The notes under the pieces: generated by a model
Told to the model about the DNA's origin: nothing
The model's input: the letters and a program-made list of their open reading frames with translations, nothing else
The model's database searches: none
Program-made: the position numbers and the translations under genes
NCBI GenBank assembly: GCA_030386875.1
Contig: CM059576.1
Span: forward strand, 61,317,581 to 61,381,580
Reading direction: 5' to 3'
From: Morinoia aosen
Taxonomy: Eukaryota > Arthropoda > Malacostraca > Amphipoda > Talitridae
Length of the DNA stretch: 64,000 nt
In this document: piece after piece, positions 6,703 to 52,792 of the stretch
Layout of the letters: each line of letters starts with the position of its first letter
Numbering within the stretch: the stretch's first letter is position 1

Positions 6703-9609
6703 TCAATGTTTCCTGTACAAACTAATAATTAAGTCTTTGCTCGTATTTTGCACCTTTACAGGAATGTGGTGATTCTTGCAATATTTTTCAATATCACTCC
6801 ATCTGTAATTCTGCGGACATTCCAAAACTATACTCTTTATGTTATTTGAACCTAAAATACACATAATTGTATAGAAAGTTGTGTGGGCAAATATGTCCTT
6901 GACACCGCTGAATTTCAAGGGCTGGGACCAGTCCCACACTGAAATCAGTTCCTTCAGCACGTCTTCACTGTGTGATATGCCGAACGTGAGAACGAAATTC
7001 GCCTGAAGCCCTTTTTTGTTATCTTTAAAGAACTGAATAAATGATTGAATAATATCATCCCAACTTGTGTTGAGAACTAGGACTGGTTTACACCCAACAT
7101 TATTGAGACTTCTCAAGGCATCTTGGAAGTTGTCCTCTGGAGCTGAGAAAACCACCTCAGCTTGGGAGCTCATAATGTTTCTTTCCATCAAATTCGTTAT
7201 GATTTGCATGCACTCGATTGACATTGGGCGAGGTAGGGTGTTCGTATCTAAATGCATCCGAAATGCAGACACGATAATTTCGTTATTGTTCACGGAGGCG
7301 AGTACAGAACCTATGAACAAAATGTTTTGAACTGAATGCAGAGGAAAGTGTTTTGCTATGAATGCTCCACATTCTTCAGTTAAGCAAGAAGATGGTATAA
7401 GTTCCAGCGCAAATAGTAATAGGTTGACCATTTGTTCATTTTGCTCAAATTTTGCATTCGGAAAGCATTCACTGAAATCTCTCTTCCCTTCTTCCACCTC
7501 CTTCACGATATACTGCGCTGCCATCATTTCTTGCTGGGTGGTGTGTATGAAAGACCAAATCTTCTCGCAGCTAGTTAGTGAAATGCTTGTTTCACAAAGC
7601 AAAATAGAAGACATTGCATCTTCAACGTCAAATTGCTGAACAACATTTTTACACTTCGACTCCAAGAACTTCATTTCGTTTCCGTCAAGATACAGTTTCT
7701 GTTTTCCAATTCCCTCAAGAGCTATTTGGCCTAAATTCATCAACCAAGCTTCAACATTGTTTTCCATTTCCAATGGATTGACTTTGATTCTAGAATTTTC
7801 AAGTAGTCGTTTAGAGAGACGTTTTTTCATCATTTCAATGATCTTTACATGAATCTGACCTTCTGTTGAAACCTCATCAATGTTGGACCTGTCATCAATC
7901 CATAACAATATCAGGAGAGCAAGTGTCAGAGGCAGTTCAATAATCGGTTGCAGTTTCTTTCTCTGGTAGACGTACTCAATGAAAGCGTCGCATCCACCTG
8001 ACTGATTCAATGTAGAAAAAAGCTTTCCGGCGTATTCTGATATACAACGCTTGTCAAAACCCTTAATTTTCAAACTTAACAATTCAGGGCACGCGTGCTT
8101 GTGAACAAGTTTCGCCGTCAAGTCAGAGTATACGTGAGGTCTGCTTGTAATGAGTATCTTATTCGAAGGAAATTTGTAATGAATTTCTAAGATGAGATTT
8201 TGTACTCGATTATCTGCTTCATCATAGCCATCGATGATGAACAGTGGCTTGAATCTGTGAAGCATCTCAATGACTTCTGTTTCAGGTACCAAGGGTAATG
8301 AGTTCTTGAGCACTTCCTCCTTCACAAAAGCAGCAAGGCCATTGGACTGCACGTACCGACACTGAATAAAAATTAAAAGCTGATAATTTTCAAGATTTTC
8401 TACTTCCGCATTTTGCTCTGTCCAGCAGTAGATAAGATATCTGCACAGTGACGTTTTACCAGAACCAGCAATGCCTGTTATCACAACCGTGGACTGAACA
8501 ACGCCCGAATCATCCTGAGTTACTAATATTTTTTCCACTGGAATTTCATATTGCCTTCCATTCCTCATGGTAAGTTTAGTAAATACCTTATCAATAGTAA
8601 TAGTCAGTAGGTCATCATTTACAAACCATGTTATCGGTGACAAGACTCGCATTTTTTTGTACCTGTCTCTAAGTTCTATTATACTTTGCTGAAGTAAATC
8701 TTCCTGAATGTCTTCCTTAATTGCTTTAAGTTGAATCATACGATCAGCATGTTCTGCTTGTAAGCTCTGAGATGTACGAATGTTGTCTAATTGAGTCAAG
8801 TAATCTGCCTTCGAGGTGGGATCAACTCCAGTTTTATCACAAAGTTCTTCAATTAGTTTTCTAATTGTTTTCAGTCTACTGTCGAGCTCGGACTTCGATA
8901 ACTGGAATGCCTCATGGGCGAAAAAGTTTCTCTGATTTTTCAGCAGATATAATCTATTTTCCACTGAGTCCCCTGACTGCACCCAAAAAGCGGAGTCCTT
9001 ACTCAAACCACAGCAATGTTGTAGTAATTTATACAGCATGGTTACGTCAAAATCTTGCAATATATTTAAAGAAAGTTTGTCTATTTCTTTTTTATTAAAA
9101 ATTTTACGTACAACATTTTGTTCCATGCAATTATAACACTGCTGTAAGATCGAAGTGGTACCACGATTGGATAATACTTCGAACACAGCGGCTAATGCTT
9201 TTGCAACTGGACTGCCTTTTCGCACAGCCATAAACAATTTTAGAGCGTTGATGTCACACACCGTGATGTCCGGAGCTACGTTTATTGAAGAGGAAGGTGG
9301 TGGATTTGATGAAGCTGAAGCGGTCGTTGTCAGTGAAGTTGCAGATGATACTGATGGAGCGGAGTTGGGCAATAAGGTACCAGAAGTTGAGGGAGATGTG
9401 GAATGAGTATTCAACGATACAGTGTGAGAAACCAGTCGGGATGGAACAACATTAGCAGAACCAGATGACGTGATGTGACCACCAGCCGGCGTTGTAATAA
9501 CATTCGTAGGACTGCAGGATACTGTAACAGCTTCGCTAAGTGAAGATGTGCCGTGAGGAACTGAAGAATCAACGGCATTTTCACGAGGTTTTGACGCTTT
9601 TAACCCCAT
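6703..9609 (-). CDS. HEPN-NACHT protein (NLR-like STAND ATPase), intronless
   Basis: A 968-residue protein in one exon. Domains in order: a start MGLKAS that fits an N-myristoylation signal; a low-complexity Ser/Thr/Pro linker to about residue 110; a HEPN domain of the DZIP3 type (about 115-260) that keeps the R-x4-H motif of HEPN ribonucleases (R227, H232); and a NACHT NTPase with Walker A GIAGSGKT (379-386), Walker B LFIIDGYDEA (456-465) and sensor-like ILITSRPH (485-492). A helical region with ELPLTLALLILL follows. No leucine-rich repeats are visible; the last 180 residues look alpha/beta. By family knowledge, NACHT proteins oligomerise on signal and activate an attached effector, here plausibly RNA cleavage in innate immunity; that role is inference. 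The ATG has a good context (AAGATGG), and an in-frame TGA lies nine codons upstream (9634-9636). No disabling mutation is seen. Confidence 0.87.
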   Translation of the reverse strand: MGLKASKPRENAVDSSVPHGTSSLSEAVTVSCSPTNVITTPAGGHITSSGSANVVPSRLVSHTVSLNTHSTSPSTSGTLLPNSAPSVSSATSLTTTASASSNPPPSSSINVAPDITVCDINALKLFMAVRKGSPVAKALAAVFEVLSNRGTTSILQQCYNCMEQNVVRKIFNKKEIDKLSLNILQDFDVTMLYKLLQHCCGLSKDSAFWVQSGDSVENRLYLLKNQRNFFAHEAFQLSKSELDSRLKTIRKLIEELCDKTGVDPTSKADYLTQLDNIRTSQSLQAEHADRMIQLKAIKEDIQEDLLQQSIIELRDRYKKMRVLSPITWFVNDDLLTITIDKVFTKLTMRNGRQYEIPVEKILVTQDDSGVVQSTVVITGIAGSGKTSLCRYLIYCWTEQNAEVENLENYQLLIFIQCRYVQSNGLAAFVKEEVLKNSLPLVPETEVIEMLHRFKPLFIIDGYDEADNRVQNLILEIHYKFPSNKILITSRPHVYSDLTAKLVHKHACPELLSLKIKGFDKRCISEYAGKLFSTLNQSGGCDAFIEYVYQRKKLQPIIELPLTLALLILLWIDDRSNIDEVSTEGQIHVKIIEMMKKRLSKRLLENSRIKVNPLEMENNVEAWLMNLGQIALEGIGKQKLYLDGNEMKFLESKCKNVVQQFDVEDAMSSILLCETSISLTSCEKIWSFIHTTQQEMMAAQYIVKEVEEGKRDFSECFPNAKFEQNEQMVNLLLFALELIPSSCLTEECGAFIAKHFPLHSVQNILFIGSVLASVNNNEIIVSAFRMHLDTNTLPRPMSIECMQIITNLMERNIMSSQAEVVFSAPEDNFQDALRSLNNVGCKPVLVLNTSWDDIIQSFIQFFKDNKKGLQANFVLTFGISHSEDVLKELISVWDWSQPLKFSGVKDIFAHTTFYTIMCILGSNNIKSIVLECPQNYRWSDIEKYCKNHHIPVKVQNTSKDLIISLYRKH

Positions 9610-10183
9610 CTTCTTCCGATTTAAAGCTTTAATTCATTGAAAAAATTAACACTTGGCAGAAAAGCTCCGTCAGCGCTCGGGACAAACATTCAATGCTAAA
9701 TCACAACAAGACTTTGAGGAGGATTTAACTAATTTTCTAAAAAAATGAATTGTTATCAGAGATAAACACTACCTTTTTTTTCATAGGTGGAGTTTCATGC
9801 TCTTTTTTCTGGAAAAATAAACAGGTTATATCTAAGAAAACGTACAATGGAGAGAATAGACGCGTCTGAAAAGAAAAATGTTAAACTGGTAGTTGCCAAT
9901 TCAGATTTCATTGCATTTTGAAAATCGGTGTTTAGGAAAGGAAATTGTGCGCTGAATCTAACATGCTTGTGATTTTTAGATATTAATATTTTCTCTGAGA
10001 CAGCTTTTGCAACAACTAAAACTGGGGGGGAATTCGTTTTCAAGTTCTTTAAAAAAAATACTGTAAAATAGCGAAGTAAAGGCTAGTCTAAAGTAAGAGT
10101 AAATGTTAGCGATTCAATGCAAAGTCAAGAAAAACATTAATTGAAATGAAGAGTCGAATGAATTTACTGTGCTTCAAACTGCG
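9610..10183. other. 5' flank of the HEPN-NACHT gene, no gene seen
   Basis: AT-rich sequence upstream of the minus-strand gene. I see no clear TATA box at a fixed distance and no other gene. An 82-codon minus frame at 9795-10043 looks accidental. Confidence 0.5.
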
Positions 10184-12198: not shown

Positions 12199-12542
12199 AT
12201 GGTACGGAATTATGTTAAGAAGGCTAAGCCATACAACGATGAGACCCTTAAACTCGCCCTGGAAGAAATTGCAAGTGGTGTTGCAATTAAGGAGGCAGCA
12301 AGGAAGCACAACATCGGGTATGGAAAGCTGTGGATTGAACATAAGAAGCACCAGGAATCTGAGGACTACCAAGCTGCAACATACACAGGCAAAAGAGTGA
12401 GTGCAAATATAACTAATTACAATAAAGCCTAAGAAAATAGGTTTGAATATAAAAAGAAATATGTATGGGTTCTATAATACTGTAGATACATTTACCTTGG
12501 CAATAATTGTGAGTTGATGTTGATGTGCAATAACATTCTTGT

Positions 12543-12596
<54 letters not shown>

Positions 12597-14866
12597 TGTA
12601 TTACTTAGCTACATTGATTCCAATATCTATTCTTTGTTTGCAGGGAAGGAAGGTTGCACTGTCCGATGAAATGGAGGCAGAAATATTGAGATGCGTGAAG
12701 ATTATGGAGAAAATGGGAATGCCTCCTCCCATTGCCGAATTTCAGTCTCTCATACATGACTACCTAGAATGTAACCAATGCATCACTCCTTTCCTTGACA
12801 ATCGGCCAGGAAGGGACTGGGTGAACAACTTCTTAAAGCGCCATGGGCTCACATTGAAGAAAGGAGGCATGATGCAGCTGGCGAGGAAGAGTGTCACGTC
12901 AGACCCGTTCGTTGTCTACGGATTTTACGACAAGTTGAGGACGCTGATCGATAAAATGGGACTCGCAGGAAAGCCTAGTTCCATCTTCAACATGGATGAG
13001 ACCGGTTTTCCTACAGACCCATCAAAGGCCAAGACCATCGGCACAAAAGGGGTGAAAACGGTTAGGATTACTCATGGTGCTAACAGGGAAAATATCACTG
13101 TGTTAGCTACCTGCTGTGCCGATGGAACTGCACTACAACCTTTGATTGTATTCAAAGGCAAGAAGATGCAGACTACCTGGCGGGGTGATAATGCTTTACC
13201 AGGAACTCAATATGCTGTGACTGATTCCGGTTGGATGACCACCTCTGTCTTTGAAGATTTCTTTGAGTCTTTTGTAGAAGTAGTGACAAGCAGAGGACCA
13301 ATTCTAGTGGTGCTAGATGGTCACCTGAGCCACACATCCTTACGGACAATAGATTTGGCAGTAAAAAACCACATCACCATTTTGAAGTTGCCACCTCATT
13401 GTACCGACCTCCTCCAGCCCTTGGACGTGGCTTGTTTTGCTCCCTTGAAGTCGTACTACGATTCAAAATTGCTGGAGTATACTCAAAGTACAGGAGGCCG
13501 GGAGCACCTTCGTAAGGATCTCTTTGTGAACATGTTGTGTTCAGTTTGGAACACTGGGTTGTCTCCAGAGAACATTGTGGCAGGTTTCCGAGCAACTGGC
13601 ATCCACCCCCTGGATAGGACGAAGTATAACATCTCGAGGCTCGATACGATAAAGCTCAAAACTTATGATGACTGGGTGTCTGCAGGAAAGCCCACTGATG
13701 ATGATGACCAGCCAATCCTGCCCATTGCTAGTACCCAGTCCCACGACATGTTTCCTCCTTCTCCTTCTCCACCTGCACCTGAGGATGAAACCCCTGCAGC
13801 GTCTGCACCTACTGCTTCAACACCTAAGCGACCAGCCACTGCTTCTACGTCTACAGATTCTCAAACTCCTAGTTGCAGCTTTTGGCAATCACCTGCCAGT
13901 ACTGAACCAGCTCTCTCACAGGAATTAAAGAAGTGCACGGACCAACAGCTGGTGGATGAGCTACTGAGCAGGGATGAGGCTGCATTGAGTCTCCTCTTCA
14001 AATGTCTCTCCTCAAGCATCTCTCAGCGTGGTAAGAGCTCTCTTCCAGCTTCTATAGAGGCTGTCCTACACTCTAGAGGACGTGGTGCTACCCCCCTCAC
14101 AAAAAAGAGGAGAGTCATTCCCATGAGCAGCTCGATAATAACTGATGAAAAGTTCCGCCAAAAGATTGTAGAAATGAACGAGCCTAAGGTAAAACCTCGG
14201 AAGAAGGGAGCCCCTACTCAAACCGAGAAGTCAAAGAAGGAAGCACCAAAGAAAAAAGCAACCGGGAAGAAGAGAAAGTTGGAGGAGGAGGACGAGGACT
14301 TGGACTCAACAGACGTTTCCAGTGTTGCAATGACCGAAGCAAACACCTCAAGTGATTTATCTCTGAAAGATGACCTTGAAGAAGTGCAAGATAACTTTGA
14401 GGAGGCTACAGAAGAGAGAATGGAGGTGACACAAGGAAGAGAAGAGACAGATGACAGAAAAGACAAGGACAGAGTTGGTAGGCATGATGGGACCACAGAT
14501 GATAGAACACAGGTCGTCACGTCAGAGAGTGGTACCATTGAAGACGCAGACATCAATAAATATGTTGCAGTGTACTTCTCACACCCAAAGCCTCAGTACT
14601 TCTGGGGAAAAGTTGTAAAAGTCTTCTCAAGTGATGAAGAAACTGACGTGACGCAGGTGGAGGTCAATTTTTTGCAGAAGAAAACGATCTTCAGTGACCC
14701 TGCAGCATGGACCTGGGCTGAGAAGACTGTTAAAGAGGTCCTAATCATTGACACCAAATTCAAAGTGTTTGGGCCTCTGCTCCCTGACGTCAGGAAAAAC
14801 ATATTTCGCTTTCCAGATGTTCAGGCCATGATCTCTCTTCGCAAATTTCATGAGAGGGATGGTTAA
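12199..14866 (+). CDS. pogo/Tigger-like transposase, two exons
   Basis: Exon 1 (12199-12396, 66 codons) encodes a Psq-type helix-turn-helix (residues 8-48). Exon 2 runs 12644-14866. The intron begins GTGAGT and ends TTTGTTTGCAG, phase 0, and joins TGKR to GRKVAL without a break, giving 806 residues. A CENP-B-like DNA-binding region (about 67-150, with GRDWVNNFLKRHGL) is followed by a DDE_1 catalytic core: D184 in FNMDETGF, D291 in LVVLDGHLSH and D327 in LLQPLDVACF, spacing DD35D, as in pogo/Tigger/Jerky families. A Ser/Thr/Pro-rich linker, a basic KKRK signal with acidic stretch and a further C-terminal domain (about 705-800, YFWGKVVKVF and FRFPDV) extend it beyond a minimal pogo transposase. 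I do not know the C-terminal domain. No frameshift or stop is seen. Confidence 0.92.
12397..12643 (+). other. intron of the pogo-like transposase gene, with (TA)n
   Basis: 247-bp intron with consensus GTGAGT donor and pyrimidine-rich TTTGTTTGCAG acceptor. It contains a pure TA microsatellite at about 12547-12593, which gives a false open frame leading into exon 2. Confidence 0.85.
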
Positions 14867-22913: not shown

Positions 22914-24654
22914 CTCTTGCTGCAAACAAGACTTTAGTTGTGACTCGACCGGACAAAGGTCGCGGTGTAGTTTTACTTGATAGGTCAAATTATTTGCGAG
23001 GTTTGGGTACTATTATTTCAGACAGCAGCAGGTTCTCGGAAATATGTGAACCTATCCATAAATATGTACTCCGCATAGAAGATAAAATTAATAATTTCTT
23101 ACGAAAACTTAGTAAATCTTCTGTTATTACTGAAACTATATATAATAGTTTATTTGTTTCCGGTTCAGGTCCGGGAATACGCTATGGTCTTCCTTAAGTA
23201 CATAAAGCAGATTTTTAAATCCAAATTTCAAATAAGACCGATTTTTGCAGCCTACAACACTCCGAGTTATAAATTAGCTAAATTTTTGGTACTCATTTTA
23301 AACCCAATAACTACTAATAAATACAGCGTTTTTAATTCGTCCTCCTTTGCTAAGGAGAACGCTAGTATTCCTGATGCTGACAAATTTTACATGACGTCAT
23401 TTGATGTCGAAAATTTGTTTACCAATATTCCGTTAACTGAAACAATTGATATTTGTTTGCAGCAATTATTTGAAGTGGAACAGACCGTTTGTAACTTTAG
23501 TCGTGTAGCATTCAAAACTCTGTTAGATCTTGCAGTTAGGTTCACATTTTTCATTTTTAATGGCAAGTACTGCAAACAAATCGAGGGATTGGGTACGGGG
23601 CTGCCTTTGGGTCCAACTTTCGCGAATATTTTTATGTCACATCATGAACGAATATGGCTTTCTGAATGTCCAGGTTATTTTAAACCAATATTTTACCGCA
23701 GATTCGTTGATGATACTTATGTTTTGTTCCGAGAAAGAAACCACGCTTTTTTGTTTCTTGGTTATATTAATAGTAAACACCGAAATATTAATTTTACCAT
23801 GGAGACTGAAGCTAACAATAAATTTTAGACTGTCCCTTTTTAGACTGTCTTGTCCAACGCTCAGGTTCCACTTTTTGTACCTCTGTTTATAGGTAAAGCA
23901 CATTTACTGGTTTGGGTTTAAGTTATTTTTCGTATTCTTCTTTTTTATTCAAAATCAACAGCATGAAAACCCTTTTATTTCGGGCCTGTGAAATATGCTC
24001 AAATTATTCATTGTTGCATAATAAGTTTGAATTTTTGAAACAGTTTTTTGTAAAAAATGGTTATCCTTTATATTTTATTCATAAATATCTCAAGCAGTTT
24101 TTAGATAAAAAGTATTCCGCCATTGCTACTGTGCTGACTGTACGAGTAGATAAGAAGAAATTGTTCGTCACCATTCCTTACTTCGGTGTTCAGTCTGAAA
24201 GGTTGAAAGAACAATTGCTCTAATTAGTTGTGAAATACTTTCCCTGTGTCGACCTTCAAATTATTTTGGTTAATAATTTCAAAATTAGTTCATTTTTTAT
24301 TTTAAAGATAGACTAACTATTTCATTGCTTTCCTCTGTTGTATACAAGTACTGTTGCCCACTGTGTGGGTCTGTGTACGTCGGTTCGACATCTCGGTTGC
24401 TATCTACGAGGGTATTTGAACACAGTGGTAGAAGTTTTAGGACTGGTATTCCATTAAGTAGGCCTTCCCATTCAGCTATTAGAATCCATGCTGAAAAATG
24501 CAATAGAACTATTTCACTAGAAAATTTTTCAATATTAGGTTCTGCAGGTTCGTGTTTTAATTTACGCATTCTTGAATCCCTCTTTATTAGCAAATTGAAA
24601 CCTAACCTTAATGACATGCAGTCTTCCTATCCATTGAAAATAGGTATTACGTAA
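22914..24654 (+). pseudogene. Penelope-like reverse transcriptase / GIY-YIG endonuclease, broken
   Basis: Recognisable in order: TRPDKGRGVVLLDR (N-terminal RT finger region, 22940 on); motif A SFDVENLFTNIP; motif B GLGTGLPLGPTFANIFM; motif C FYRRFVDDTYVLF; then a GIY-YIG endonuclease with a CxxC pair and VYVGST, ending near KLKPNLND. The reading frame is broken several times: a TAA near 23195 in the normally conserved LPK.HK segment, a frameshift just after it, a break near 23826, a TAA near 23893, and a stop and frame change between 24223 and 24325. The 5' part of the gene is missing. The protein cannot be made from this copy. Confidence 0.88.
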
Positions 24655-35992: not shown

Positions 35993-37475
35993 TGTGAAAA
36001 AACACACTCGAAATATTTAAAGTTTATTAAGCTCGGGCAATTGGAACAGAGGCGCGAGGAAACAAAACTCCTCTAGGAAGCAGTCGCCTTTTGGACCGGC
36101 TTGAGCTCCTCAATCACGCCCAAACAACGACGTAGTTAGGTCCGAGGTGGATAGGCAAGTGCAGGTCCTAAGCTGGGGTAGTACCGGGCACATGTAGCAC
36201 TGGGTCCGGGATACCTCCCGGCTTTTCAGTAGTCAAAATTCCAGCTGAGACGGAAAAGGAATGTTTCCAGGTGACAATCCCAACTGCTCGAACTTCCCGA
36301 CGCTGGAGGGACGCAACCCAGTTCGGAAAACTGCCGCCGGATTGAAGCTAGGAAAGAAAAGGACGAGATCTGAGGATTAACCGAGAAATGAAGCTCGCAA
36401 CCGCCTATGACTCTTCCTAATTTTTAAATGAACAGGATAAACTTTCAAATCGCACCTAAAACGAAACCCACCAATTTGAACTCACAAGCCAAGGAAACCT
36501 CGGCCGCATAGCCGCTTCACAAGACAAGGGATGGTTCGGCGCAAGCAGGGTTTCACTCAAAAAAAAGGTGTTCTCCGCAGGGCGTGCAATGGGGGAGCAT
36601 ACTGGCGACAAGAAACAAAGGCACTTTCGTTAGGTCATAACACTCGAAGCGAACAAGCAAATATCACCACAACCAAGATTTCATATAACAATACATCGGA
36701 TACACCAACAATTCTCACCTAGGGAATTTGTTCCCGAGTGAGGATAAGAGCCTCTATTAGAAGAGTTTATTTGAGGAAAAAAATAGGAAAATAAGTAAAA
36801 GGTAACCATTCAGAGCCGTTCTATAAAGATAAAGAAAAAGGAGGAGAATCTTTTCCGTAAGAAAATCCCACTTCCTAACGTGGATCGGGAGAACACAAGA
36901 AATCGCGAGAATCTCTTTCACGTCTAGGAACTCCCAATCTCAAGTCAATTGTTTAAGGGTGGCCAACGGCCTTTAAGAGTGGCCAACGGCCTTTAAGAGT
37001 GGCCAACGGCCTTTAAGAGTGGCCAACGGGCCTTTAAGAGTGGCCAACGGGCCTTTAAGAGTGGCCAACGGGCCTTTAAGAGTGGCCAACGGGCCTTTAA
37101 GTTCAAGTATCAAATTTTAAAGGCTCTGAATGGTATAGCAAAATAACACCCAAAAATAATAATAAATGAAACGAAAATCACAGGCACACTCAAATAAAAA
37201 GATAGCAAAAAAAGTGGTCAAGGAAGAAGGTAGAGGGACCTCCTATAGGCTCACGACACATGACGCGGCAGGGTCCCTAGAAATGCGGAAAACCGGCACA
37301 ACACTCCTTCCATGACTGGATGGAAAAATTACTTGATTATAATCAATAACAACCTACCTGAAGAAAGACAAACCAAGACAGACGTCACCTCTGTTTGCAG
37401 ACAGCACACCCAAACGAACTGACTCCAGGTACTAACCCACATGTCACTCAGAGACGCGCACCGGAATTTCCAACA
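35993..37475 (-). repeat. 3' LTR of the BEL/Pao element
   Basis: 1483 bp; on the plus strand it runs from TGTGAAAAAACACACTC to TTTCCAACA. It holds seven tandem units of about 20 bp with the core GTGGCCAACGGCCTTTAAGA (36955-37100); the last four units have an extra G. The end of the polyprotein frame lies inside this LTR. A possible AATAAA (minus) is at 36766-36771. Confidence 0.93.
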
Positions 37476-40400
37476 CACTCCCGGGGCCAGGGAGAAATCA
37501 ATTTCTTGATTTCGCAAGGCATTCAGGCACCGTTCTGCAGCCTTCCTACGAGGTCTGCCAACAGGAGTAAGAATATCGGGTACAGTAGACACAGGTTCGA
37601 CGGAGTCCAGCCTAAGTTCCAAAGGGTAGAGTAACGATACTGCGTATTCCCCTGTGGTCCTGTCGGGTCTAATGAGCTCAACAGAGCGAGTTTTGCCGTC
37701 GGCCCCGGTGAACAGTTTAGTTATGCGACCCATGGACCACATTGGTCTAGGCTTAACGGGGGACGAAATTAAGACTATATCACCAATATTAATCCGATCT
37801 TCCCATTGGGGTTCGTAACGATGCTTATCAGCCTGTCGAAGAGAAAGAAGATAATCATTATACCAAAAGTGTTTGAACTTCTCCATCGCTTCCTCCCTAA
37901 TCTGCAACGTGTCTATTAAGGCAACTCTTGAAGGGTGCAACAACTGGTCACCGTCCAGCGACCCGAAACTGAAAACAGAACTCCTACTACCTAACTTGAG
38001 GAAGGAATTAGGGGAAATCCACTCTTGGGAAAGATCGTCAGAATCTAAATAGGTCAACGGCCTGGAATTTATTGCAGTTTGAATGTCAGAGATTAAGGTA
38101 AAAAATGAAAAGTATTCAATTTTGTTCTTCCCAATTGCTTTGAACAAACAGCTTTTTACCACCCTAATTAGCCGCTCCCAACTACTTCCGAACCACGCCG
38201 AGTACAAAGGGATTCTAATGTGCTTTATTGAATTTCGGCGGAAAAAACCAGAAGAGTCCTCTGAAAAGGAAGAATTGAGTAAATCGGCTGCTTGTTTGAA
38301 AGTTGGTGCGTTGTCGCTGTAGACTGTTCTCGGGACACAAAATCTGTTGGAGAATCGGATGAAGGCAGAGAGGAATGAAGTTGTGGTCATATCGGGAAGA
38401 AGCTCAAGGTGAATTGCTCTGATGTTCAGACAGGTGAAGATCAATAGATACATTTTTCTAGTGGAATTGCCAAAATCTACATTAAAATGACCAGTGAAAT
38501 CAACCCCGACATTTAGGAAGGGTTGAATGTAATTTACCTTATCGGAAAAATAGTCTGTGGGTTTCGGATAGGTAAACGCTCTGGAGTTAAATTTGGCACA
38601 TAACGTACATTCCTTGATGACCTTTTTGATAAGGGGACGAGGCTTAGGAATCCAGTACCCCGAATTCCTCAAGCAATTCAAAGTGGAGCCAACGCCCATG
38701 TGCATGCACTTTTCGTGGCAGGCACGCACTAGTAACCATGAGAGATGGCTGGATCTGGAAATTAAAATAGGGTTAGAAACATCGAAAGAAACATGCCGGC
38801 ACCTACCAAGCCTACCTCTGCAGCGAATGACACCGTCGCTATCAAGAAATAAGCAAAGATTTCTGACAAGGGGAGGAGGATCTCTCGCGTTAGGCGTATT
38901 AAGAAAAGCAAACTCTTCAGGAAAACTAGTTTGCTGATCCCACCTCAACCAATACAGACGGCCCTTAGAATAGTTTAGCACATGATCGACTTTTCGCCGC
39001 TTCAAAAGGTCGGAAAACTGGTACAATCTAGATGTGACTCTAAACAACCTATCAGCACTTGAAAAGTTAGCCATTTCCAGGACTGGCTCCACGACCTGAT
39101 TAGTTGGAGCTGTCAACGCAGAACAAGCAACAACATCAGATGAAGCAGTAGGCAAACATCCTAACCTACTCTGTGGCCAGGGTTGCGGAGGGTCTACCAG
39201 GAACTCAGGCCCGTGTCGCCAAAAGCCTAATTTTTTCTCAAACTCGCTAATAGTTAAACCCCTAGTGAGCATATCTGCAGGATTTAGTTCTGAAGGGATG
39301 AATTTGAATTCACAATCCAAACGATGGTCATGCTTCAGCGATTCACGGAACTGCAATATGTCTTTTACCCTATTGTTAGCGAATCCATTTTTAGTTTTAA
39401 CATAACCGTTTAATAACCAAGCCAGCACTATTTGCGCATCTACAGCGAAAACGACGCTTTTTACGTTAACTCTCTTTAAGCACTTCAGCAAATTCAACAA
39501 ACACTTGAAAGCAAGAAACACACCCAGAAGCTCTAGTGTGGGGAGACTTTTTGCTTTAATAGGGGCCACCTTACTCTTGCTAAAAAGCAAATTAGAGCTT
39601 AACTGATCGCGTTCCGTAATGCAATAAATGCTGAACCCGTAACAAGTCTGAGAAGCATCCGAAAAAATAACCAACCGCACTGGCTCATCAGAGTCCAGCA
39701 CTTTTCGGCTGAACCGGAACTTACCCAAGTCATTCAAGTCTATACTCAACTTCAACCATTCACTGTTCAGATCATCTGGTAAGGAGTCGTCCCAGTTCAA
39801 GCCAGCTTTCCACATCTTCCTCATCAACACCTTACTCCTAACAGTTACCGGTCCTACCAGTCCCAGGGGATCAAATCGTTTGGCTAAATGAGACAAGACT
39901 GACCTTTTCGTCACTTTAACCGGCGGAGTAGAGTCATCAACAGACACGGCCAGGGAATCGCACTCTGTTTTATAGTCGTAACCGAGAATTTTGGCTACCT
40001 CTGCGTTCTCCGCAGCAACGCCATCTGACTCCAACCTCCCCTGGACAGCCTTGTCGTTCGATAACCAACTTCGCAATTGAAAGCCACCCTGCGACATTCT
40101 TTCGCGGCAAGATTCGTACAAGTCTATTAGTGACGAAGGATTACTACCGGTGAGAAAAAGGTTGTCAACATACATGTTGTTCAACAGGAAATTACTGCAC
40201 AAGTCTGCAGGGTAGCTAGAAACATGGTGTTTTATGACATAATTAAGGATGAAAGGGCTTGCAACGAAGCCAAACACGATGGTAGTGTACCTATATACGA
40301 CAAGCTTCTTATTCTTAATCCAAAGGATACAAAATTTATCTTTATCACTCTCCAACGAGAGCCTGATTTGAAGAAACGCTTGCTTAATGTCAGACATCAG

Positions 40401-42833
40401 AATATTATCATCATGTCTAAGCTGAATCAATAACGAAAACAAGTCTCCCATCAGATCGATTCCAGGGAAGGCAGCATCGTTCAAAGAAGGGCACCCATCT
40501 ACTCTTAAGCTACAATTTAACACAGGCCTAACCTTGGTAGTGCAAGTAGGATGTTCCTTGATTACGGCTCTGTGCGGGATGAAGACCTTCCCCTCAAAAT
40601 TACTTTCGTCACAAGGGACCTCCTCCAATATTCCATCTCTGAGCTGCTGATTGAAAACCTCATCGTACGTCTCAAAATGCCCATGTGTCTTCAATCTGTC
40701 AATCACTCTAGAAAGTACAGCACGAGCAACGATAAAGTTGTCTCTAACCAGAGAAATCTTCTCATTCCATGGGAGAACTATATGGTATTTACCATTCTTA
40801 AATTCAATCTGATCCGCAAACTTTTGAACAATTTCTTTATCGGAGGAAGCAACAGAGTCATCCTCCGAAATCCCTATGGATTCAAGGTTAAAGATTCTCT
40901 CTAAATGACCCTCTACAGCACTGCCCGGTAAGACACTACTGATAGGATCTGGGTGACAAGGCTGAGGATCAAGGACAAAATTCACGCAAGCTCTATATTC
41001 CTCACACGAACTGTGAAGGGACTTGTACAACTCAGGCACCTGCTTCTTGTCTAAAAAATGCTCGACGTTTCCCCAAGGAACGACCTTGGATCCAAGCAGG
41101 AAGGCGGTACCTCTCATGCAATCTACTAATTCAAAACTGGTGAAGCACTGAAGGATGTCCACTCCTAATATCCCTTCCAAATTAACAGTATCTGTCTCGG
41201 TAGACATCGAAGAGTCAGCCAGCTGAACATAAGACTGAAGATTTCCTACAGCCTTCCCCAAAAAACACACATCGAATGACATTTGAAAAGTTTTATCGAC
41301 AAGGACAGGCACCTGCAATTTATTGACGCCATCTAGCAAATCAATCAAAAGACTTATTTCAGCAAAAGATTTCACTCCCCTTTCAAGGAAAGAATTAACA
41401 AGGTAAGTGGAAGTTTGAGAGAGGTCGACACATTTAAGGCGGCTCAGAACCGACGCTGAGATATATGAACGCTGAGACCCGGAGTCTATAAGGAACCGAA
41501 CATTGGTTGCGTTCTTACCTTTCCCAACTGGTAAAGTTATGGTAGGAAGGATATAGACAGATTTTGTATTAGCTGAAGAATTTAAGCATATGTTAGACTG
41601 AAACTCTCTTAATTTAGCCTTTCTACACAATGCAGCCACATGAGAGCGCTCTTTGCAAAACTTGCACTCAAAATCGAGGTTGGCGTTGCACCTACCAGCC
41701 TCATGTTTAGCACTAGTGCACTTTGTGCACAGCCTAAGCTCGGTACACCTATCCACCCTACTGTTTATCGTAGGGTAAGCGCTACAATGGAGCATATTAT
41801 GGCCCAGGCTGGAACAGAATTTACAGGTCTTGCGTTCTTGGGCGGTAGTGGCAACATTAGCAAATACTCCCCTCTGCTTAGGAGGTGGGAGCCCACCTGA
41901 CTGGCTCAAAACAGAATGCTTAGGAAAAGAAGGTTTAGGCCTCTCAGTCTTTTCAGAGCGAAAAGAAGAGGTTCTGATTCTGAGAGTCTCGATCACGTCT
42001 ACGTAATTAGCAAAAATATGGGGCAACTGAGGGTAATTATTATTTAATTTACGAGCCAACTCCTGCTGAAATGGCACGGGTAATTTAGCAAAAACAACAT
42101 GGCTAACGAAGATCAAGCCAGAAGGTTCTCCAAGCACATCACAGTCGTTATTTTTTAAATCAGCTACAATACTGCGAACCTCAGAGATGAACAGCTTAGT
42201 TTCACGATAACTAGGGTCAAACCGGCATTTTAGTTCAAGTAAGGCCTTGCACAATTTATTCACAATAGCATCTTTCTTCAAGAACTCAAGTTTAAGAATG
42301 TTCAAGGCAACTTCGTAATTATTATCGTTGATGCTCAAATGCTCAATCAACTTCAAAGCGTAGCCGTTCAAATAACTCTTAAGGTACGTTAACTTTGCCG
42401 AGTCACTCAGAGATTTCCTATGGCCTACGATGTCATTAAACTGCGACAAAAATGTGGCAAACTTCAGAAAATCGTCTCCTTCGCCAGAGAACACGACGCA
42501 CTTTAGATTTGGCAACTTAACTTCCCTAAGGGAAGGAAAATTATCTTCGGGTTCATTAGGCGGGTCCGCCAGCAATTTAAGCTTGATTTCAATGTCAGAA
42601 ATATACGCACACTGAGCGTCTACCTCCTTATTTAGCGCTTCACCGTCTTTCTTTTCCTCCAGTAACTGACTGATTATACTCTCGTCATATGCCCTCACCT
42701 GGTCCAAATTGCGGCGCACCTCCTCGCAATGAGCCCGCAAAGCGGCGGAGGACCCTGCATCCTCAGCGCTGCGCAACCCCAGGGTGACCTTACGCTTGTA
42801 GACCGCTCGGCGCTGCACCAGAGAATCTGCCAT
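37329..42833 (-). CDS. BEL/Pao Gag-Pol polyprotein
   Basis: 1834 residues, one frame. Order: coiled N-terminus; Gag region of the DUF1759 type (about 95-290); three CCHC zinc knuckles (C337-C350, C369-C382, C390-C403); aspartic protease with FLIDSGSQ (D450); reverse transcriptase with motif A ILMSDIKQAF (D815) and motif C MYVDNLF (888-891); Pao-specific region with DPLGLVGP; RNase H (D1059, E1101, D1132); integrase with an HHCC zinc site (about 1363-1412) and catalytic D1445, D1507 and E1553; then a C-terminal DUF5641-like module (WSMGRITKLF). It encodes the proteins for particle assembly, reverse transcription and integration. Motif C reads YVDN where YVDD is usual. The last roughly 50 codons read into the 3' LTR. 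No internal stop or frameshift is seen. Confidence 0.96.
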   Translation of the reverse strand: MADSLVQRRAVYKRKVTLGLRSAEDAGSSAALRAHCEEVRRNLDQVRAYDESIISQLLEEKKDGEALNKEVDAQCAYISDIEIKLKLLADPPNEPEDNFPSLREVKLPNLKCVVFSGEGDDFLKFATFLSQFNDIVGHRKSLSDSAKLTYLKSYLNGYALKLIEHLSINDNNYEVALNILKLEFLKKDAIVNKLCKALLELKCRFDPSYRETKLFISEVRSIVADLKNNDCDVLGEPSGLIFVSHVVFAKLPVPFQQELARKLNNNYPQLPHIFANYVDVIETLRIRTSSFRSEKTERPKPSFPKHSVLSQSGGLPPPKQRGVFANVATTAQERKTCKFCSSLGHNMLHCSAYPTINSRVDRCTELRLCTKCTSAKHEAGRCNANLDFECKFCKERSHVAALCRKAKLREFQSNICLNSSANTKSVYILPTITLPVGKGKNATNVRFLIDSGSQRSYISASVLSRLKCVDLSQTSTYLVNSFLERGVKSFAEISLLIDLLDGVNKLQVPVLVDKTFQMSFDVCFLGKAVGNLQSYVQLADSSMSTETDTVNLEGILGVDILQCFTSFELVDCMRGTAFLLGSKVVPWGNVEHFLDKKQVPELYKSLHSSCEEYRACVNFVLDPQPCHPDPISSVLPGSAVEGHLERIFNLESIGISEDDSVASSDKEIVQKFADQIEFKNGKYHIVLPWNEKISLVRDNFIVARAVLSRVIDRLKTHGHFETYDEVFNQQLRDGILEEVPCDESNFEGKVFIPHRAVIKEHPTCTTKVRPVLNCSLRVDGCPSLNDAAFPGIDLMGDLFSLLIQLRHDDNILMSDIKQAFLQIRLSLESDKDKFCILWIKNKKLVVYRYTTIVFGFVASPFILNYVIKHHVSSYPADLCSNFLLNNMYVDNLFLTGSNPSSLIDLYESCRERMSQGGFQLRSWLSNDKAVQGRLESDGVAAENAEVAKILGYDYKTECDSLAVSVDDSTPPVKVTKRSVLSHLAKRFDPLGLVGPVTVRSKVLMRKMWKAGLNWDDSLPDDLNSEWLKLSIDLNDLGKFRFSRKVLDSDEPVRLVIFSDASQTCYGFSIYCITERDQLSSNLLFSKSKVAPIKAKSLPTLELLGVFLAFKCLLNLLKCLKRVNVKSVVFAVDAQIVLAWLLNGYVKTKNGFANNRVKDILQFRESLKHDHRLDCEFKFIPSELNPADMLTRGLTISEFEKKLGFWRHGPEFLVDPPQPWPQSRLGCLPTASSDVVACSALTAPTNQVVEPVLEMANFSSADRLFRVTSRLYQFSDLLKRRKVDHVLNYSKGRLYWLRWDQQTSFPEEFAFLNTPNARDPPPLVRNLCLFLDSDGVIRCRGRLGRCRHVSFDVSNPILISRSSHLSWLLVRACHEKCMHMGVGSTLNCLRNSGYWIPKPRPLIKKVIKECTLCAKFNSRAFTYPKPTDYFSDKVNYIQPFLNVGVDFTGHFNVDFGNSTRKMYLLIFTCLNIRAIHLELLPDMTTTSFLSAFIRFSNRFCVPRTVYSDNAPTFKQAADLLNSSFSEDSSGFFRRNSIKHIRIPLYSAWFGSSWERLIRVVKSCLFKAIGKNKIEYFSFFTLISDIQTAINSRPLTYLDSDDLSQEWISPNSFLKLGSRSSVFSFGSLDGDQLLHPSRVALIDTLQIREEAMEKFKHFWYNDYLLSLRQADKHRYEPQWEDRINIGDIVLISSPVKPRPMWSMGRITKLFTGADGKTRSVELIRPDRTTGEYAVSLLYPLELRLDSVEPVSTVPDILTPVGRPRRKAAERCLNALRNQEIDFSLAPGVCWKFRCASLSDMWVSTWSQFVWVCCLQTEVTSVLVCLSSGRLLLIIIK

Positions 42834-51625: not shown

Positions 51626-52792
51626 ATGAACAACTTTGCGGACAACTCGGATTTCTCAGAAGACAGCGAAATGGAAACCCAAGAGACTACAAAGAAACGA
51701 GGAGTTAAACCAGGCACTAAAAGGAAGAAATATGTCAAATGGATTTCTAACGAAAAAGACAGAGTAATTAAAGCAGCACAGAACTTGGACGACTGGAGAT
51801 CAGTAGCAGTTGCAAATGAAGTGCCTATCGCTACAGCGTACGGGTGGATTAAAAGATCGGAGATAAATATTTTGCCCAAAAAGAGGGGTGGTGCCAGATA
51901 TTCAAAATTAAATCAAAATTTAAGAGAAAAAATGATTCTTTATGTTGAAAATGATCCACTCATATCTTTGAAGGAAATACAGCAGAAGATACAAGTAAAT
52001 GAAGGAACTACTTTATCCATACCAACGATCCACAAGTGTTTAGATTGCCAAATGTATACTATCAAGAAAGTTCTCCCTCAACCAGTTGCGATGAATTCTG
52101 ATGAGAATAAACGGAAGCGTGCGGCTTATGTATCTTCGATAACGACAAAAATCGGCATGGGCAAAACTGTTGTCTATCTCGATGAAACTAATTGCAATTT
52201 ATTTTTGCGTAGAAACTTTGGAAGGTCCAAAAAAGGCGTACGCTGCTCAGTCAAGTTGCCCACGTCCAAAGGAAAAAACATCCACGTAATTGGTGGCATC
52301 ACACAAACAGGACTACAATACTGGGAGAGGAAGAGAGGGTCTTTTCGAAAAGAAGACTGCTGTGATTTTCTAAGACGCTTACTTCGTAGTGTACAGGAGC
52401 CAATGACGGAGGTAGTGGTAGTTATTGATAATGCTCCGGTGCATGTTAGCCTTGAAACCGTAACACAGGAGGAAGAGTTTGAAGGCGTTGAGATATTACG
52501 ATTGGCTCCATATAGCGCGCCGTTGAATCCTATAGAAGAGTGTTGGAGCGCATTCAAGTCCCAAGCTAAGATGCTTCACAAAAATGGCCTGCAAGCTCTG
52601 TTAAGAGATCCTGTACCAGAAGGGACTTCCCAAACTGAGCATCGGTTACAATATTTGGAAAGAATAATTGATGCTTCCATGGTTAAGATAACACCTGTCT
52701 TGTGTTTAAAGGTGTGCAACCTTGTTCAAAAACATTTTAATAACTGCATAGCTTTGAAAGATCTCAAAATGGGAGATCAAGTTAGCCAATAA
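51626..52792 (+). CDS. DD35E transposase (Tc1/mariner/IS630 superfamily)
   Basis: 388 residues, uninterrupted. An acidic N-terminus (SEDSEMETQE) precedes a basic AT-hook-like or nuclear-signal stretch (KKRGVKPGTKRKKY) and a helix-turn-helix region (about 40-145). The DDE_3 catalytic core has D186 in VVYLDETNCN, D268 in VVVIDNAPVH and E304 in LNPIEECWSAFK, with 35 residues between the second D and E (DD35E). The enzyme cuts and rejoins its own ends at TA targets. The linker PTSKGKNIHVIGGITQTG is typical of a lineage I have seen in arthropods and protists rather than classical mariner (DD34D) or Tc1 (DD34E). An AATAAA overlaps the stop codon. Confidence 0.93.
   Translation: MNNFADNSDFSEDSEMETQETTKKRGVKPGTKRKKYVKWISNEKDRVIKAAQNLDDWRSVAVANEVPIATAYGWIKRSEINILPKKRGGARYSKLNQNLREKMILYVENDPLISLKEIQQKIQVNEGTTLSIPTIHKCLDCQMYTIKKVLPQPVAMNSDENKRKRAAYVSSITTKIGMGKTVVYLDETNCNLFLRRNFGRSKKGVRCSVKLPTSKGKNIHVIGGITQTGLQYWERKRGSFRKEDCCDFLRRLLRSVQEPMTEVVVVIDNAPVHVSLETVTQEEEFEGVEILRLAPYSAPLNPIEECWSAFKSQAKMLHKNGLQALLRDPVPEGTSQTEHRLQYLERIIDASMVKITPVLCLKVCNLVQKHFNNCIALKDLKMGDQVSQ

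Follow-up and report, generated by a model that had tools for sequence, protein, structure and literature searches.

The locus and its reading frame

The window analysed here, a 64,000-nucleotide stretch of the Morinoia aosen genome (contig CM059576.1, positions 61,317,581 to 61,381,580), contains a gene for a 968-residue protein in which a HEPN domain precedes a NACHT NTPase domain. By computation, the gene has this HEPN-NACHT layout with intact motifs, the motifs are conserved in most of the relatives examined, the frame is under purifying selection, and the family is large. The first-pass annotation had proposed an intronless HEPN-NACHT protein, a candidate NLR-like, RNA-cleaving immune sensor of an arthropod. 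Its basic observations hold, in that the open frame of 968 codons runs exactly from 6703 to 9609 on the minus strand, HEPN (by a match of the HEPN stretch) and NACHT (by Pfam) lie within one polypeptide, and the Walker A, Walker B, TSRPH and RNFFAH motifs are all present at the residues assigned to them. The length is not due to chance: at the base composition of the window, the expected number of random open runs of 968 codons is about 5.5e-26. The features are:

6703..9609, minus strand: single coding frame, HEPN-NACHT protein of 968 residues; ATG start, genuine TGA stop with no overlapping splice donor
9262..9609, minus strand: residues 1-116, Ser/Thr/Pro-rich, predicted disordered (model confidence, pLDDT, <50)
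8830..9252, minus strand: HEPN domain, residues 120-260, all-helical (HEPN_DZIP3 match; predicted helices from 120-131 to 239-260; profile comparison with PDB chains)
8914..8931, minus strand: R227-N-F-F-A-H232, predicted active-site motif of a HEPN ribonuclease (RNase), closing helix 216-232 (motif as described in the available text of PMC3710099)
8014..8493, minus strand: NACHT NTPase domain, residues 373-532 (Pfam PF05729)
8452..8475, minus strand: Walker A, GIAGSGKT (379-386); K385 in 43/43 aligned frames
8215..8244, minus strand: Walker B, LFIIDGYDEA (456-465); D460 and E464 in 43/43, D463 in 42/43
8134..8148, minus strand: TSRPH (488-492) with sensor-1-like arginine R490, in 42/43
7480..8013, minus strand: NLR-type helical and winged-helix region, residues 533-710, with P560 and F687-x-H689-x4-E694 (structural match to NLRC4/NOD2/NLRP3)
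6706..7479, minus strand: C-terminal helical and leucine-rich repeat (LRR)-like region, residues 711-968, candidate sensor (strands at 871, 898, 926 and 951, a period of about 27 residues)
9737..9747, minus strand: possible splice acceptor of the 5' untranslated region (T-run then TAG), about 128 nt 5' of the ATG; a tentative reading by eye
12539-14866, plus strand: DDE_1 transposase
23154-23828, plus strand: RVT_1 fragment
37329-42833, minus strand: Bel-Pao retrotransposon
51626-52792, plus strand: DDE_3 transposase

The protein starts with MGLKASK, and its relatives L002 and L046 with MGSKASK and MGTKHSK, respectively; we take this common start to be N-myristoylation-like, of the form MGxxxSK.

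The HEPN domain and the NLR-type core

The NACHT domain is clear, as the profile check proposed in the first-pass annotation bore out: PF05729 matches residues 373-532 with 65.5 bits (E 6.5e-18) against a cut-off of 26.7, and the score, Walker A, Walker B with its D..DE and the sensor arginine together place the protein in this family. The region that follows completes an NLR-type NACHT-WHD-HD2 core; a phmmer search of the PDB aligns NLRP3 across residues 357-710 (E 3.5e-8), and within the post-NACHT part (533-710) P560 is kept in 41/43 frames and E694 in 42/43.

For the HEPN domain, HEPN_DZIP3 (PF18738) matches residues 159-256 of the whole protein with 21.4 bits, and the HEPN stretch alone with 25.2 bits (E 1.5e-5), whereas the Pfam gathering cut-off is 27 bits. 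Since even the higher score lies below that cut-off, the domain as judged by profile is near DZIP3 and no formal HEPN_DZIP3 member. The earlier description of a DZIP3-type HEPN was thus right as to the nearest Pfam family, HEPN_DZIP3 being the best HEPN family for this protein, and overstated as to strict membership.

Assignment to the wider superfamily is based on the predicted model and alignment, which give an all-helical domain with R-[polar]-x3-5-H ending helix 3. As described in the available text of PMC3710099, the HEPN motif sits at the end of helix 3 and the residue after the arginine is mostly N, D or H. In the predicted model R227 and H232 likewise close one helix, ahead of the loop that leads to the following one, as in HEPN RNases. 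An alignment of 14 diverse HEPN stretches of the family has four invariant columns, F, D, N and H. When these 14 were compared with Pfam at E<=1, HEPN_Swt1 was matched by 5/14, HEPN_DZIP3 by 4/14, DUF3644 by 3/14, HEPN_MAE_28990, HEPN_RiboL-PSP, HEPN_Apea and DUF4145 by 2/14 each, and Csm6_HEPN by 1/14; the remaining families were matched by one member each with weak scores. DUF3644 and DUF4145 are counted as HEPN in the portion of PMC3710099 available. A PADLOC Csx1/Csm6 match to residues 174-274 is weak (E 0.0026). In a search of the PDB with the HEPN profile, the best single-stretch matches were the CRISPR-associated 8y75 (E 0.009) and 8y7f (E 0.006), which carry RNSVAH aligned beneath R-N-x3-H. 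The top-listed matches, designed PPR proteins, were set aside, as their scores add up over repeats and none of their single stretches is significant. Because of these repeat sums, and because unrelated helical proteins follow close behind, the PDB matches lend the HEPN assignment modest support.

The C-terminal region resembles, with low confidence, a degenerate LRR: the model has a strand/helix period of about 27 at residues 871-965, where blocks of pLDDT are 54-76. If so, the protein would resemble a classical NLR more closely than the first-pass annotation supposed. Among the 7 candidates scored in the host genome, matches to the C-terminal 258 residues at E<=0.001 are limited to two local copies; a sensor that diverges rapidly would be expected to show such divergence, as would any rapidly evolving tail.

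Gene family, exon structure and selection

The assembly comprises 1.99 Gb in 29 contigs, with the window in C21 (120.9 Mb, 6.1% of the genome). Pfam NACHT gives at least 103 matches in it, all above cut-off and 98 of them without an internal stop, at 102 loci; Pfam and three protein searches combined give at least 106 NACHT loci, 61 on C21. These counts are lower bounds, because the best candidates alone were scored, and the loci are not independent, owing to tandem and segmental copying. On C21, the longest of 12 contigs with lengths shown, they span 12-107 Mb. With about a hundred NACHT loci in the genome, a point missed by the first-pass annotation, the window gene is thus not isolated; the same contig carries an intact copy at a distance of about 231 kb and an interrupted one at about 205 kb, and there are dozens of distant relatives.

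The HEPN content of the family is known from a sample of the 106 loci, namely the 43 frames of at least 400 residues from 52 loci of the host genome; left out were hemocyanin loci (L049-L052), pieces or duplicates of local copies (L003, L004, L006, L048) and the interrupted L028. Three pairs are near-identical (99.87-99.98% over 5-6 kb), L032/L033 (C17, 15.07 and 20.08 Mb), L011/L012 (C3) and L022/L026 (C21), and represent either recent duplications or assembly duplicates. A mobile short subfamily was considered and rejected; the C21 copies concerned are 87-93% identical to L018, the identity extends beyond the frame, and their borders resemble exon borders, no search for terminal repeats having been made. 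With respect to the host, one hemocyanin frame (of 17 matches) scores best against 1hc1 and 6l8s, far above 3ixv and 1lla. We take the former two to be decapod and the latter two chelicerate. On the basis of this one compared frame the host is very probably malacostracan, in agreement with the arthropod predicted earlier.

The apparent stop codon overlaps a strict splice donor (GTRAGT) in 27/43 frames, and a looser form in 33/43; in such cases the G falls, by construction, on the third codon position. Although close copies account for many of these frames, the strict form is also present in the divergent L008, L009, L016, L026, L031, L035, L046 and the L018 group. In L018-L047 and others the stops at the frame ends are probably donors (GTGAGT/GTAAGT), in which case NACHT gene lengths based on open reading frames would be exon lengths. 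Acceptor-like sites lie within 12 nt 5' of the ATG in 20/43 frames (the truncated L022 not counted), and a downstream open segment at L046 resembles, by eye, the C-terminal region of the window protein. Judging by the donor-overlapping stops and acceptor-like sites, most of the relatives examined would be large NACHT exons inside spliced genes. By contrast, no donor is present at the end of the window gene, L002, L005, L007, L010 or L014. The claim that the gene is intronless therefore stands for its coding part, is no rule for the family and was overstated as a notable trait; with spliced-looking relatives, and five others that end without a donor, it is no sign of a retrocopy.

Selection on the frame, for which a comparison between paralogues had been suggested, is purifying. 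Against the intact copy L002 (91% identical), dS (synonymous divergence) is 0.187, dN (nonsynonymous divergence) 0.043 and dN/dS 0.23, with a synonymous excess of p 6.5e-21. By region, the ratio is 0.37 in the N terminus, 0.31 in HEPN, 0.26 in the linker, 0.16 in NACHT, 0.07 (the lowest) in the post-NACHT region and 0.32 in the C terminus. Of 18 pairs formed among the other relatives, 16 give defined ratios of 0.31-0.66, and the remaining two lack synonymous changes. In the comparison with the broken local copy L003, its two readable pieces give 0.60 and 0.40. That the frame is a functionless retrocopy or passenger of a mobile element, as its single coding exon, the nearby transposons and one broken local copy might suggest, is in our view highly improbable; the ratio between intact copies and its minimum in the post-NACHT core, together with the apparent splice borders of relatives, led us to reject it, and the frame's Pfam hits include no mobile-element family.

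Proposed function and relation to known systems

We consider it probable that in the window protein an NLR-like switch controls a HEPN RNase as its effector; activation of this type accounts most economically for the layout and for the related literature. By analogy with related families, from which the oligomerisation, RNA cleavage, immune trigger and membrane anchor are drawn, the protein would be a cytoplasmic, possibly membrane-tethered, NLR-like receptor, in which the C-terminal LRR-like region would sense a ligand or disturbance. The NACHT/winged-helix core would act as an ATP-driven switch and then oligomerise, pairing the N-terminal HEPN domains as dimers, the R-N-x3-H sites of which may cut RNA, viral or cellular, in an antiviral or cell-sacrifice response.

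The conservation of the motif is consistent with this proposal. R-N-x3-H is intact ahead of NACHT in 35/43 frames (the window protein and 34/42 others, some very divergent), in line with the earlier expectation of conservation in homologues; N228 and H232 are each kept in 41/43. The count of 35/43 overstates independence, since near-identical copies are counted apart; one of the exceptions, L045, has a frame that starts too late. When near-copies and truncated regions, six of the 43, are dropped and a tree is built from the other 37 NACHT regions, the window gene groups with L002, then nearest to L007 and L005; several branches are long and 11/34 inner branches are open. Genes with the motif occur on either side of the midpoint, consistent with an active HEPN domain in the ancestor and losses later on.

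A number of observations weigh against the proposal. As to the HEPN domain itself, the HEPN_DZIP3 score is below the curated cut-off, the HEPN matches in the PDB profile search share their score range with unrelated chains such as designed PPR repeats, a synaptonemal protein and GCN4 fusions, pLDDT blocks in this part of the model are 45-88, and the 50 listed structural matches include no HEPN protein, in a list that one domain can fill. PF18738 searched against the host genome at E 0.001 gave no match among 6 candidates scored, and controls gave none either, so that this null does not show absence. No Pfam LRR is found in the window protein at E<=0.1, and the LRR-like part is of low confidence. 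As to catalysis, one clade (L009, L016, L017, L024) has K for R with N and H kept, L032 and L033 have Rx3H, one residue fewer, and L007 keeps NACHT without a recognisable HEPN; catalysis would thus not be universal in the family. The K-for-R clade lies on C11 and may have an inactive or altered HEPN.

These same exceptions favour a HEPN domain that binds RNA or dimerises without nuclease activity and signals via partners, as death-fold NLRs do, and some motif-less HEPN domains probably bind RNA without cutting it (according to the available text of PMC3710099). The retention of R-N-x3-H in the window protein and most of the others, the near-invariance of N228 and H232, and the ratio of 0.31 across HEPN argue otherwise, and we regard a non-nuclease role as unlikely. 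The same mechanism might instead serve germline or stress surveillance, sensing transposons or the cell's own RNA and not pathogens; four of the five scanned frames of the window, all except the HEPN-NACHT gene, are mobile-element frames. Large families, recent duplicates and a diverged C terminus are the usual mark of pathogen recognition, however, and the present family has recent duplicates and a diverged C terminus, so that we hold this alternative to be quite improbable, even though degradation of viral and transposable-element RNA has been raised for HEPN proteins (PMC9646362).

An NLR-like sensor with a HEPN effector would have precedents in its layout. In the available text of PMC3710099, the DZIP3 HEPN family is fused in animals to NACHT, DEATH, LRR and other domains, and HEPN-NACHT fusions, in print since 2013, are expanded in Nematostella, oyster and Capsaspora. 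The DZIP3/hRUL138-like HEPN-NACHT proteins (PMC3710099, in the part available; pearl oyster, PMC9646362) have, as here, an N-terminal Rx4H HEPN and then NACHT, and expansion is large and lineage-specific in both, with enrichment on one scaffold in oyster (PMC9646362) and on one contig here. The window protein differs from that set in its score under the HEPN_DZIP3 cut-off, crustacean host, LRR-like C terminus (low confidence) and myristoylation-like start. Unlike in vertebrate NLRs (NLRC4, NOD2, NLRP3), HEPN replaces CARD/PYD and an LRR is unrecognised by sequence. Crustacean NACHT proteins are known from shrimp (LvNLRC, PMC12370184) and Daphnia (homologues, PMC5062602), as far as the available portions describe them; LvNLRC has C-terminal LRRs, but the function of its 349 N-terminal residues is described as unknown, with no HEPN reported in the part available.

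Bacterial HEPN/STAND fusions, Avs and bNACHT defence proteins share distant sequence similarity alone with the window protein. A prokaryotic or viral source was rejected, though no bacterial genomes were searched; the viral contigs searched gave one NACHT match (L053, 1180-3096), 24% identical to residues 345-596. This 638-residue protein is from an IMG/VR record in which the flanking frames are, by eye, bacterial or phage-like.

The literature searched yielded no description of a HEPN-NACHT family or expansion in a crustacean, which is a limit of the search and no proof. The kind of protein is known, then, whereas the size of the malacostracan set and its HEPN content appear to be new. It is possible, and we suggest it tentatively, that about 100 NACHT genes, mostly HEPN-bearing and more than half on one contig, encode RNase-firing sensors of an abortive-infection-like immunity, overlooked since the Pfam HEPN model misses their HEPN domains. 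A malacostracan with such a set of loci, HEPN-bearing for the most part in the frames sampled, would mean that arthropods possess NLRs into which an RNase effector is built, and that the HEPN half can escape domain surveys that depend on Pfam cut-offs; with this family it could be tested directly whether STAND-controlled HEPN RNases are used by animals, as they presumably are by prokaryotes.
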